From positions 2,418,001-2,482,000 of the forward strand of contig NZ_CP058334.1 in the NCBI RefSeq assembly GCF_013391085.1: a DNA stretch of 64,000 bases, in the 5' to 3' direction. The position numbers were made by a program, and so were the translations under genes. The notes under the pieces are model-generated. The model saw only the letters and a program-made list of their open reading frames with translations, had not been told where the DNA came from and ran no database searches. The stretch is from Natronomonas halophila (GTDB lineage: Archaea > Halobacteriota > Halobacteria > Halobacteriales > Haloarculaceae). This document shows, in pieces, positions 24,023 through 30,489 of the stretch. The first letter of the stretch is position 1; every line of letters begins with the position of its first letter.

Positions 24023-24220
24023 ATGACCGTTCTCTCGTTCGATGAACAGGGTGTGGAAGTCATCTACGAAGGCACCGAGTTCCGACTGGAAAAGGACCTC
24101 ATCGAGGAGGCCGTCCGCAAGGACTACCCCGACGTCACCGACCACGAAGTCCTCCAGATGGTCGAAGACGACCCCTCGCTGTCCGGCGAACCGCGACGCA
24201 TCAAAGAGATTCTCGACTAA
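24023..24220 (+). CDS. Small conserved haloarchaeal protein (DUF5800-like)
   Basis: 65 residues: a short beta unit (VLSFDEQGVEVIYEGTEFRLEK) then helices ending EVLQMVEDDPSLSGEPRRIKEIL. The family label is from memory and no function is known. A TATA box (CTTATACC, 23993-24000) ends 22 bases before the ATG, so the gene is likely leaderless, which supports this start. Its stop overlaps the convergent oxidoreductase gene by 4 bases. Confidence 0.78.
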   Translation: MTVLSFDEQGVEVIYEGTEFRLEKDLIEEAVRKDYPDVTDHEVLQMVEDDPSLSGEPRRIKEILD

Positions 24221-25467
24221 CTGTTCAGCACGGCATCCGCGGCCCGCTTGCCGCTCTCCAGAGCACCCTGAATCGACGACCAGCGGGTGTAATCGCCCGC
24301 AAGGTAGACCGACCCACCGGGCGTATCGACCGCAGGTAGCGACTCCCGAAAGCCCGGCGGTTGGGCGAACTGCGCGAACTCGATGCGGTCGATATCCACC
24401 AGTTCGAACTCACCGAAGTGGTTCTCGGGATACCACGCATCCAGCGCCTCTTGGACCTCCGTGGCCAGTTCCTCGTCGCCCGCGTCCTGCTGGCCGAGGA
24501 AGGTCGCGCTGAGTAATTGCTTGTCCTCGGGTGCGTACTCGGGCGCCGCCGCGGACATCGGCGCGATGGTGTTGGGACGGTCGTCTGCCGTGTTCAGCAG
24601 AATCCGAGAGCCCGTATCCAGCGTCTGGTGGTCCGGCAGTGAACAGTGGACCGTGACACAACATTTGGCATCGGTCGGCGTCTCCACGCCTGTCAACTCC
24701 GCCACTGATTTCGGGTCGGTCGCGACGATGACGGCGTCGGGAAATACCATCTCGTTGCCCGCTTCGACTTTCAGTTTCTCGCCGCGCTCGATGGTCGTGA
24801 CGGCCTTTCCGGTCTTGACCGTCGCGCCCGCGGCCTCGGCCCGGTCGCGCAACTGGGCGGGAATCGCGCCCATCCCCGCGGCGGGTACGACCGTCCTGCC
24901 CTCCGAGAGTGCCTTGAACGTATATTCGAAGACGCCGCTGTCGGTCCCCAACTCGCGGTCGAGGGTGATACCACCGTAAAACGGCTCGGCGAAGTGCTCG
25001 ATGAAGGCCGGCGAGAAGCCGCGGTCGGCGAGGTATTCACGCACCGTCTTCCCCTCGCCGTCGAGCAGGTTCTCGAACGACTGGCCCTTCAGTTCGCGCT
25101 GGAGGCGGAACAGCCGAAGCTTGTCACTCGTCCGGACGTCGCGATTCAGCAGCGTCGGAAGCGCCGCGCTCGGGTCGCCCAACGGGTCGGCCAGCGTCGA
25201 GCGGTGGTTCGGCCTGGCGATGGTCGCGCCGGGGGCGAACGTCCGCAAATCGAGGTCGTCAAAGTCCAACTCGCGGCGCGCGGCCGGGTACGCTGTAAAG
25301 AGCACCTGAAAACCCCTGTCGAGGGTGAATCCGTCGACCTCACGTGAGCGGACGCGGCCGCCGACACGGGCGTTTTCCTCGAAGAGTTCGACTTCAGCGC
25401 CCGCCTCGGCCAGATGGCGTGCGGCGACCAGTCCGGCGAGGCCGCCACCGGCTACGACGACGTGCAT
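24217..25467 (-). CDS. FAD-dependent amine oxidase/desaturase-type oxidoreductase
   Basis: 416 residues. The N-terminus is a dinucleotide-binding fold: VVVAGGGLAGLVAARHL, then ELFEENARVGGRVRS with the acidic ribose-binding residue and the GGR motif. The C-terminal FAD motif is VYLAGDYTRWSSIQGALESGKRAADAV. This pattern is shared by protoporphyrinogen oxidases, phytoene desaturases and flavin amine oxidases. The branch cannot be fixed; a carotenoid- or haem-type substrate is possible. The ATG at 25467 begins the Rossmann strand directly, as is usual. The frame upstream of it is not conserved-looking. Confidence 0.85.
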   Translation of the reverse strand: MHVVVAGGGLAGLVAARHLAEAGAEVELFEENARVGGRVRSREVDGFTLDRGFQVLFTAYPAARRELDFDDLDLRTFAPGATIARPNHRSTLADPLGDPSAALPTLLNRDVRTSDKLRLFRLQRELKGQSFENLLDGEGKTVREYLADRGFSPAFIEHFAEPFYGGITLDRELGTDSGVFEYTFKALSEGRTVVPAAGMGAIPAQLRDRAEAAGATVKTGKAVTTIERGEKLKVEAGNEMVFPDAVIVATDPKSVAELTGVETPTDAKCCVTVHCSLPDHQTLDTGSRILLNTADDRPNTIAPMSAAAPEYAPEDKQLLSATFLGQQDAGDEELATEVQEALDAWYPENHFGEFELVDIDRIEFAQFAQPPGFRESLPAVDTPGGSVYLAGDYTRWSSIQGALESGKRAADAVLNS

Positions 25468-25594
25468 AGAACGGGGTTCGGGCGGCAGGCCCATACCCGT
25501 TTTCGTCGATTCGCTCGTGGCGAGTGGCCTGTCGCGATTCTCCCGGATAGTGTCAAACGATATAAGTTACTTTGTGAACGAATCGGCTGATACG

Positions 25595-25915: not shown

Positions 25916-27094
25916 ATGACGAGTTTCGAGGGCTTCGATTGTACGGACTGCGGGCAGACGGTCACCGACGAGGGCGCCACGCGCTGTCCCGACTGCGACG
26001 GCACGCTGGATGCGACCTACGACTACGACGCGGTCGACCTCACGCGCGAGGAACTGGGCGACCGCGACGGCGGCTGGAAACACGGCGAACTGCTGCCGTT
26101 CGTCCCCGAGGGCATCGGCGAGGGCGCAACCCCGCTCGTCGAGGCGCCGCGTCTGGCCGACGAACTCGGTGTCGGTCGCGTCCTCATCAAAAACGAGGCG
26201 CACAACCCGACGGGCACCGTCACCGACCGCGGGCAAGCGCTCGTCGCCGAGGCCGCCGCCCGCTCCGATGCTGATACGCTCGCCCTTCCGACGACGGGCA
26301 ATGGCGGCCAGTCCGCGGCCGCCTACGCCGCCCGCGCGGGCCTGCTCTCCCGCGTCTTCGTCCCCAGCCGCACTAACTTCGTCAACAAGGCGATGATAAA
26401 CGTCCACGGCGGCGACATGCGCGTCGTCGAGGGCCGCTACGGCGACGCACGCGAGGCCTACGAGAGCGAACGAGAGGAGATGCCTGCTGCCGACCGCGAG
26501 GACTGGTTCCCCGCCGGCGCCTTCGACTCGCCGTATCGCCACGAGGGCGTCAAGCCGCTCTACTACGAGACCGTCGAGCAACTGGACTGGGAAGCCCCCG
26601 ACGCCATCGTCGCGCCGGTCGGTCACGGCGCCGTCGCCGCCGGTCTCTGGAAGGCCGCCCGCGAGTTCGCCGACCTCGGACTGGCCGACGACACGCCGCG
26701 GGTCTACGCCGCCCAATCCGACGGCTGTGCGCCCGTCGTCGAGGCCATCGACTCCGGCGGGGACCCCGAACCGTGGGAGGTCCCCGACACCGTCGTCGGC
26801 AGCCTCGAAATCCCCGACCCCGAGGGCGGCCTGCCCGCCGCCGAGGCCGTCCGTGCAAGCGGCGGCGACGGGGTCGCCGTCGATGACCAAGACGCTCTCG
26901 ACAGCGCTACCACGGTCGCCCAACACGAGGGTCTCGAAATCAGCATCGCCGCCGGCGTCGCCGCCGCCGGCGCGTGGGACCTCAACGACGCGGGCGCCTT
27001 CGACGACGATGACACTATCGTCATCGTCAACACCGGCACCGGCAACAAGGACGCCGACGTGGTGCGGAGTCGGTTGATGAGCCGCGGTATGTAA
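25916..27094 (+). CDS. Threonine synthase homologue lacking the usual PLP lysine
   Basis: 392 residues of the threonine synthase/fold-type II PLP family. An N-terminal zinc ribbon (CTDCGQTV...CPDCDG, Cys at about 6, 9, 22 and 25) precedes the PLP core. The phosphate-binding loop is TTGNGGQSAA and the C-terminal part has NTGTGNKD. The active-site motif is NPTGTVTDRG, where the family has NPTGSFKDR: the Schiff-base lysine position is Thr103 (bases 26222-26224). Without it normal threonine synthase chemistry is doubtful, so this may be a divergent or regulatory paralogue. I leave the symbol empty for that reason. A palindromic repeat element starts 17 bases after the stop. Confidence 0.82.
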   Translation: MTSFEGFDCTDCGQTVTDEGATRCPDCDGTLDATYDYDAVDLTREELGDRDGGWKHGELLPFVPEGIGEGATPLVEAPRLADELGVGRVLIKNEAHNPTGTVTDRGQALVAEAAARSDADTLALPTTGNGGQSAAAYAARAGLLSRVFVPSRTNFVNKAMINVHGGDMRVVEGRYGDAREAYESEREEMPAADREDWFPAGAFDSPYRHEGVKPLYYETVEQLDWEAPDAIVAPVGHGAVAAGLWKAAREFADLGLADDTPRVYAAQSDGCAPVVEAIDSGGDPEPWEVPDTVVGSLEIPDPEGGLPAAEAVRASGGDGVAVDDQDALDSATTVAQHEGLEISIAAGVAAAGAWDLNDAGAFDDDDTIVIVNTGTGNKDADVVRSRLMSRGM

Positions 27095-27432: not shown

Positions 27433-28104
27433 ATGACGCTCGTGTCGACGTTTCTGGCCGGCATCGTCTTCGGGTTGGCGCTGGCAGCGCCTCCGGGGCC
27501 GATGAACGCCATCATCGCCGAGGAGTCGGTGCTGCGGGGCTGGGACGCGGGATTCAAAGCCGGCCTCGGAGCGATGACTGCCGATTTGGCCTTCTTCGTG
27601 TTGGCGTTCGTCGGCGTCGTCGCCGCCATCGAACGCCTACCGGTGCTGCACGGACTCATGGTCGGCATCGGAGGCGTGCTGATGCTGTATTTCGCCTACG
27701 GCGCGGCCACCGACGCCCACCAGACCTTCCGTGCCTCGGACCTTGACGACGAGAGCAAGGGCTTCCGGAAGGCGTTCGTGCTGGCGCTGACGAACCCCTA
27801 TCAGATTCTCTTCTGGCTGACCGTCGGCGTGGGCCTGCTTGCGCCCGGCCAGGTCGACGTCCTCTCGTATGCGAACGAGGCGCTGGCGGGACTGGTCGTT
27901 GTCCAGACGGGACATCCGGCTCTGTTGGTCGGACTGTTCGGCGGTATCGTCGTCTGGATAACGGGCTTTCCGGCGGCGCTGGTGGCGGCCGGCAAGCGGG
28001 TCGACGCGCTCGCGCCGGCGGTCGCCTACGGGAGCGCGCTGGTGCTCGCGGGGTTCGGCGTCTTCTTCCTCGTGGATGCGGCGGGAACGCTCACCTCGCT
28101 GTGA
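27433..28104 (+). CDS. LysE-family amino-acid exporter
   Basis: 223 residues with about six membrane helices. The LysE/RhtB signature GLALAAPPGPMNAIIAEESVLRGWDAGFKAGLGA is clear near the N-terminus (about 13-45). Members export lysine, arginine, threonine, homoserine or other solutes. FRKAFVLALTNPYQILFWL in the middle is also typical. A GAGGAG sequence 7 bases before the ATG resembles a Shine-Dalgarno site, unlike the leaderless neighbours. The substrate is unknown; the nearby lysine and threonine genes are not evidence enough. Confidence 0.88.
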   Translation: MTLVSTFLAGIVFGLALAAPPGPMNAIIAEESVLRGWDAGFKAGLGAMTADLAFFVLAFVGVVAAIERLPVLHGLMVGIGGVLMLYFAYGAATDAHQTFRASDLDDESKGFRKAFVLALTNPYQILFWLTVGVGLLAPGQVDVLSYANEALAGLVVVQTGHPALLVGLFGGIVVWITGFPAALVAAGKRVDALAPAVAYGSALVLAGFGVFFLVDAAGTLTSL

Positions 28105-29766: not shown

Positions 29767-30489
29767 ATGAAGGTTCGTGAAGCGACGGAAGACGACGGCC
29801 CGACGATTCGGTCGATTGCACTCCGCTCGATGGAAGCGTCCTATTCGTTGAGTCCCTCTACTATCGAAACCGCCATCCAACAGTGGTACGGCGTCGATAG
29901 CTTCGCGGAGAAACTCGAAGACGACGAGGTCATGCTCCTCATTGCCGAGAAGGACGGCGACCCTGTCGCCTTCTCGGAGAGCGCCCTCGTCGACGACCGC
30001 GGTGACATCCACTGGCTCCACGTCGGCGCGATGTACCGTGGAGAGGGAATTGGCCACCAACTCTACGAGGAAACTCGGGAACGCCTCGAAGACAAAGGCG
30101 CCGAGACCATCCGCGGGCTCGTGTTGGCGATGAACTCCGAGGGCAACCGGTTCTGGGAGAAGCGGGGCCTCACCAAGGTCGGCGAAGGCACCGTCGAGAT
30201 CGACGGCACCGCCTACGTCGAAAACATCTACGTCGACAAGGACTCCATCGGGCTCCAGCCCATCGTCGTCGACGACCGGGAACTCTACATCGACCGTAAC
30301 GACAGCGATAGAGGCTCCGATGGGGCCTTCTACACCGTCTACACCGACGAGGGCCGCGAGACCAAATACGGCTACTACTGCGGCGCCTGCGAGAACCTCG
30401 TCACCTCCATGGACTCCATGGGCGGGCTCCAGTGTGACGAGTGTGGCAACCAGTTGAAGCCGACGCGGTGGGACGCTGCGTACATGTAG
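29767..30489 (+). CDS. GNAT acetyltransferase with C-terminal zinc ribbon
   Basis: 240 residues. Residues 1-150 form a GNAT N-acetyltransferase: DIHWLHVGAMYRGEGIGHQLYEETRERL carries the acetyl-CoA pyrophosphate-binding loop (RGEGIGHQL). A short linker and a C-terminal Cys4 ribbon follow (YYCGACENL and CDECGN), suggesting nucleic-acid or protein binding. The acceptor is unknown. A TATA-like GGTTTTATG (about 29733) lies about 30 bases before the ATG. A palindromic element starts directly after the stop. Confidence 0.85.
   Translation: MKVREATEDDGPTIRSIALRSMEASYSLSPSTIETAIQQWYGVDSFAEKLEDDEVMLLIAEKDGDPVAFSESALVDDRGDIHWLHVGAMYRGEGIGHQLYEETRERLEDKGAETIRGLVLAMNSEGNRFWEKRGLTKVGEGTVEIDGTAYVENIYVDKDSIGLQPIVVDDRELYIDRNDSDRGSDGAFYTVYTDEGRETKYGYYCGACENLVTSMDSMGGLQCDECGNQLKPTRWDAAYM

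Follow-up and report, generated by a model that had tools for sequence, protein, structure and literature searches.

A homologue of threonine synthase that lacks the Schiff-base lysine is encoded in the analysed window, i.e., the whole 64,000-nt stretch of Natronomonas halophila DNA, and comparative analysis indicates that it is probably a pseudoenzyme, which performs no PLP chemistry and is kept by selection for a PLP-independent function. The catalytic residue is gone, and the gene bears the mark of purifying selection. Many haloarchaeal lineages appear to have lost the PLP lysine independently, yet keep the gene intact. The earlier note had proposed a regulatory or moonlighting paralogue; such a role is still the best reading, but the gene is class-wide, with repeated lysine loss, rather than one odd paralogue.

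Thr103, which the earlier note had placed at the position of the catalytic lysine in the motif NPTGTVTDRG, was confirmed by translation and by alignment, where it stands against the lysine of NPTGSFKDRG in the solved threonine synthases and in the canonical ThrC of the same genome; the nearest Natronomonas homologues (73–83% identity) share it. The AlphaFold2 model (mean pLDDT 93.3, pTM 0.92) matches the threonine synthases 2c2b (Z 48.2) and 1v7c (Z 45.2) over nearly the whole chain, and the threonine synthase fold, that of fold type II PLP enzymes, is predicted to be intact, as had been anticipated. The zinc ribbon and the PLP phosphate loop had both been described as retained: the four ribbon cysteines are indeed present, but the loop has degenerated, as in most lysine-less relatives. 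Two hallmarks of a catalytic threonine synthase are thereby missing, the Schiff-base lysine and the glycine-rich phosphate loop (PVGHGAV vs. PTGGGVG). According to the alignment, T373, the Thr/Ser position contacting the pyridine nitrogen, is present. In three homologues (L038, L040, L096), the zinc-ribbon cysteines are lost, with the remainder conserved.

Table 1. Features of the gene for the lysine-less protein and of its conserved neighbours (positions in the window)
Feature	Position	Strand	Evidence
Gene for lysine-less protein of predicted threonine synthase fold, 392 aa	25916..27094	+	Pfam PF00291, 220.7 bits; AlphaFold2 pLDDT 93.3
Zinc ribbon cysteines C9, C12, C24, C27	25940..25996	+	87–96% kept in lysine-less homologues
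Active-site motif NPTGTVTDRG, residues 97–106	26204..26233	+	Translation, homologue alignment
Codon ACC for Thr103, aligned with the PLP Schiff-base lysine	26222..26224	+	Alignment with solved threonine synthases
Asparagine loop TTGNGGQ, residues 126–132	26291..26311	+	Asn kept here, gone from 38% of lysine-less homologues
Signature block 1, PSRTNFVNKAMINVHGGDMRVVEGRYGDA: R152, F155, K158, M160, N162, R174	26363..26449	+	97–100% in orthologues with or without lysine; paralogues almost lack N162 and R174
Arg208 of PYRHEG	26537..26539	+	Invariant with and without lysine
Degenerated PLP phosphate loop PVGHGAVAAG	26615..26644	+	PTGGGVGLVG in lysine-bearing orthologues
Signature block 2, PDTVVGSLEIPDP: P290, D291, G295, E298, P302	26783..26821	+	Conservation counts
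Signature block 3, C-terminal DVVRSRLMSRG: D381, R384, S385, L387, M388, G391	27056..27088	+	Conservation counts
LysE-type translocator gene, conserved downstream neighbour	27433..28104	+	PF01810, 79.8 bits; synteny
Divergent gene of the flavin amine oxidase family, conserved upstream	24217..25494	-	PF01593, 165.8 bits; synteny

The protein passes the cut-off of the PALP superfamily model PF00291 (220.7 vs. 35 bits) and falls below two NCBIfam equivalog cut-offs, those of NF006050 (PRK08197) “threonine synthase”, its best-scoring model (263.5 vs. 303), and of TIGR00260 thrC (127.8 vs. 167.1). The lysine-bearing orthologue L134 lies above the NF006050 cut-off (388.6 vs. 303). Some lysine-less proteins, L046 (340) and L123 (321) with their relatives, also exceed the value of 303 and would receive the name threonine synthase in automatic annotation. 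With the canonical enzymes of Thermus (1v7c) and Arabidopsis (2c2b) the N. halophila protein shares the fold and the NPTG..DR motif, and with the canonical ThrC of its own genome the zinc ribbon; it differs in the absent lysine, the degraded phosphate loop, an extra signature, and scores below the cut-offs of the ThrC models.

The second, canonical threonine synthase that the earlier note had suggested looking for was found among the ten PALP-family genes of the N. halophila genome. This protein (L002) carries NPTGSFKDRG and scores 300.4 against the TIGR00260 cut-off of 167.1; it is 33% identical to the lysine-less protein, and the two genes lie approximately 0.74 Mb apart. A homoserine kinase gene is present as well, hence threonine synthesis should not need the lysine-less protein. 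Canonical ThrC was observed in 78/78 good genomes of the family, with the motif NPTGSFKDR in all 31 checked from the same group. A transposon insertion in thrC3 of Haloferax volcanii yields an auxotroph (PMC4300041); HVO_2969 may correspond to any of the homologues considered here. From these data we infer that the N. halophila protein hardly binds PLP, if at all, and does not synthesize threonine, which would be supplied by the canonical ThrC; weak non-covalent PLP binding is possible, given that N129 and T373 are kept.

Homologues (E 1e-60 or better) were identified in 112/116 genomes of the family and 278/293 of the order, and G006, a genome without a match at this threshold, has a diverged copy. 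Residue counts refer to an alignment of 219 distinct homologues and one canonical ThrC. Position 103 is occupied by K in 81 rows (including canonical ThrC), A in 45, T in 37, V in 15, L in 14, R in 10, and G in 8, and by F, Y, E, D, N, Q, or I in one or two rows each; the lysine is thus missing from about 138 of the 219 homologues. The alignment of haloarchaeal homologues, also proposed in the earlier note, places Thr in the closest Natronomonas homologues and a variety of residues, or lysine, elsewhere, e.g., Arg in Halobacterium salinarum DSM 3754, Thr in Halococcus thailandensis, Asp in Haloglomus, Ala in two Natronorubrum species, and Thr or Arg in most Natrinema.

In a tree built with the motif and PLP-contact columns left out, lysine-less sequences are scattered among lysine-bearing ones, and parsimony counts 11 changes (217 rows) or 14 (the careful tree of 79 rows). 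A single origin of all lysine-less forms was rejected by the AU test of a one-clade constraint (p-AU 1.25e-5). Well-supported sister groups with and without lysine include L176/L203 (100/100), L185/L207 (100/97), L216/L211 (100/99), L030 with L026/L032/L166 (100/100), and L057 with L076/L103 (100/99); named examples of such pairs are Halobacterium sp. TGN-42-S1 and H. salinarum (100/100), and Halostella and a MAG (100/97). The clade of the N. halophila protein comprises 91 sequences, none of them with the PLP lysine, from several families, including its own and the Haloferacaceae-like f4, and may reflect one old loss. The parsimony changes may also include a few regains, i.e., in L159 and the Halomarina group (L038, L039, L041).

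A separate lysine-bearing paralogue with the motif NPTNTFKDRG occurs patchily (L106, L108, L110, L111, L115, L116), and similar genes are located on plasmids of Halomarina sp. BND7, Natribaculum, and others; this apparently active form may be transferred among genomes in which the lysine-less gene is retained as well. Two genomes, G024 and G084, gave identical scores and contig positions with both genes searched for and may share a chromosome assembly.

The remainder of the PLP site decays together with the lysine. The GGG of the phosphate loop is found in 76/80 sequences with lysine vs. 4/136 without it, and T373 in 80/80 vs. 72/136 (54% of the lysine-less). In independent pairs, the loop changes only together with the lysine, about 5.4 to 0, the sign test being borderline (median p 0.06). 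Four lysine-bearing sequences (L038, L039, L041, L159) have already degraded loops; hence, either the order of losses is not uniform or the lysine can return. The gain in entropy at position 103 is the largest of all 392 positions, as expected if the residue is out of use.

What is kept forms a second signature. Invariant in the 138 lysine-less sequences are T99, D104, R105, G128, P150, R152, A159, M160, N162, P206, R208, P228, Q267, P290, D291, G295, E298, P302, D324, D381, R384, and L387. A double dissociation was observed: the signature residues are conserved at 97–100% in both the 64 lysine-bearing orthologues and the 138 lysine-less sequences, and at 0–62% in the 16 lysine-bearing paralogues (0–44% for N162, R174, P290, D291, G295, E298, S385, L387, M388, and G391), whereas the PLP residues show the opposite pattern and are kept in these 16. 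Being equally conserved with or without lysine and poorly conserved in the paralogues, the signature marks a PLP-independent property of the orthologue; it is not shared with canonical ThrC. Judging from substitution rates, the lysine-less genes are under purifying selection: the median dN/dS is 0.17 in lysine-less pairs (n = 193) vs. 0.156 in lysine-bearing pairs (n = 290), pairs within a clade being not independent.

These observations may be explained by a previously unrecognised, PLP-independent core function of this near-universal haloarchaeal protein that predates the loss of catalysis, the lysine then having been lost in parallel from one bifunctional ancestor, an account that we hold with moderate confidence. 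The selected function would already have been present in the lysine-bearing ancestor; with threonine probably supplied by canonical ThrC, PLP chemistry would then no longer have been needed, and the lysine would have disappeared many times. K158 and R208 are presumably the contacts to the substrate phosphate in threonine synthases, as assigned by alignment. Our preferred guess at the mechanism, a tentative one, is ligand sensing coupled to partner binding: the cleft residues T99, K158, and R208 could hold a phosphorylated amino acid (e.g., O-phosphohomoserine) non-covalently, and a partner could dock on a surface formed by the signature residues. As a sensor or regulatory subunit, the protein would then serve the metabolism of aspartate-family amino acids, perhaps linked to canonical ThrC or to the LysE-type exporter encoded next to it.

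A special case of the pseudoenzyme reading is that of a regulatory subunit in heteromers with the catalytic canonical ThrC. Precedents for heteromers with a catalytic partner are the LCB1 subunit of serine palmitoyltransferase and dead prozymes. Canonical ThrC is universal alongside the lysine-less gene, plant threonine synthases are dimers (PMC9081730), and a paralogue without catalytic activity can activate its partner enzyme (PMC3663545). Given the low identity of the two N. halophila proteins, the distance between their genes, and the absence of the signature from canonical ThrC, we nevertheless regard this arrangement as unlikely, though worth serious consideration.

Improbable, in our estimate, is an enzyme with changed chemistry that holds PLP non-covalently or dispenses with it. 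Some PLP enzymes do function without the lysine, e.g., ColD, and the invariance of the cleft residues T99, D104, R105, K158, and R208, as well as the retention of N129 and T373 in the N. halophila protein, would fit. However, no single residue substitutes for the lysine (A, T, V, L, R, G, F, Y, and others are found), the phosphate loop decays along with it, and no new lysine has been fixed near the site. The unusual chemistry that the earlier note had offered as an option gained no positive support, position 103 being the most relaxed in entropy of all; another lysine reaching the PLP, named there as a possible refutation, was also sought in the alignment, and none recurs around position 103 in the lysine-less sequences. 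K158 was rejected as a replacement, as the lysine-bearing forms have it too.

That the gene is functionless and decaying, though not yet gone, is very improbable: lysine-less sequences do evolve faster (median root-to-tip 1.12 vs. 0.75), but the 91-sequence clade retains open frames across several families, at least 20 residues are invariant in the lysine-less sequences, and the dN/dS data led us to reject decay. A sequencing error at the Thr103 codon, also foreseen in the earlier note, or an annotation error there has nothing in its favour and negligible probability, as all recovered Natronomonas relatives, from independent assemblies, lack the lysine.

Regulatory pseudoenzymes without the catalytic residue of their family include LCB1 and antizyme inhibitor. 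Another is the dead paralogue of deoxyhypusine synthase in trypanosomatids (PMC3663545). All share with the present case a dead homologue kept alongside an active enzyme; the present case differs in being archaeal, in belonging to fold type II, and in having many losses within a single orthologous gene. A cyanobacterial ThrC is likewise a threonine synthase homologue with an additional role, but that role, PLP-dependent threonine deamination, is catalytic (PMC12172450), unlike the one proposed here. The literature searched, which covered few subscription papers, contained no earlier description of a lysine-less haloarchaeal threonine synthase, and thrC is unmentioned in a review devoted to unresolved annotation questions for Haloferax. 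Pseudoenzymes and dead regulatory subunits were already known; what appears new is that a single orthologous gene lost the residue repeatedly and carries a second conserved signature.

The protein, one of those that annotation models call threonine synthase, is carried by nearly all haloarchaeal genomes and in many lineages is probably not that enzyme; annotations and metabolic models that count the lysine-less form as threonine synthase would then be wrong. The family further offers a natural experiment, in which the same enzyme would have become a pseudoenzyme many times and versions with and without lysine occur in close sister species. A small set of residues marks the putative second function, the nature of which could be tested directly in haloarchaea amenable to genetics.

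Conservation of the gene neighbourhood was assessed by tblastn with the neighbours from the window, as clustering of ORFs was cluttered by spurious ORFs in this GC-rich DNA. A LysE gene is located at most 500 nt downstream in 31 loci, and for most genus g20 members the gap is 2–9 nt. Allowing up to 5.5 kb, it was found downstream and on the same strand in 11/18 f4, 6/7 Natronomonadaceae, 2/3 Halorubellaceae, and 3/8 Haladaptataceae loci, and in 0/33 Natrialbaceae, though the threonine synthase homologue is present there. Hence, as far as synteny goes, LysE cannot be a general partner. The divergent upstream amine oxidase gene is likewise frequent, and the N. halophila genome has only two LysE-family genes. 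The neighbourhood weakly suggests a link to amino-acid export.

In most f4 loci (L285–L304), the lysine-less gene is followed by a gene for a DtxR-type metal-dependent regulator with a FeoA domain, and a GDT1-type cation transporter gene is close by in some f4 genomes. In the window, a bactofilin-domain protein (PF04519; 22,670–24,145, minus strand) is encoded next to a HAD hydrolase gene, and a GNAT acetyltransferase fused to DUF5816 (29,767–30,489, plus strand) is a conserved neighbour of the lysine-less gene in several loci of the Natronomonas type.
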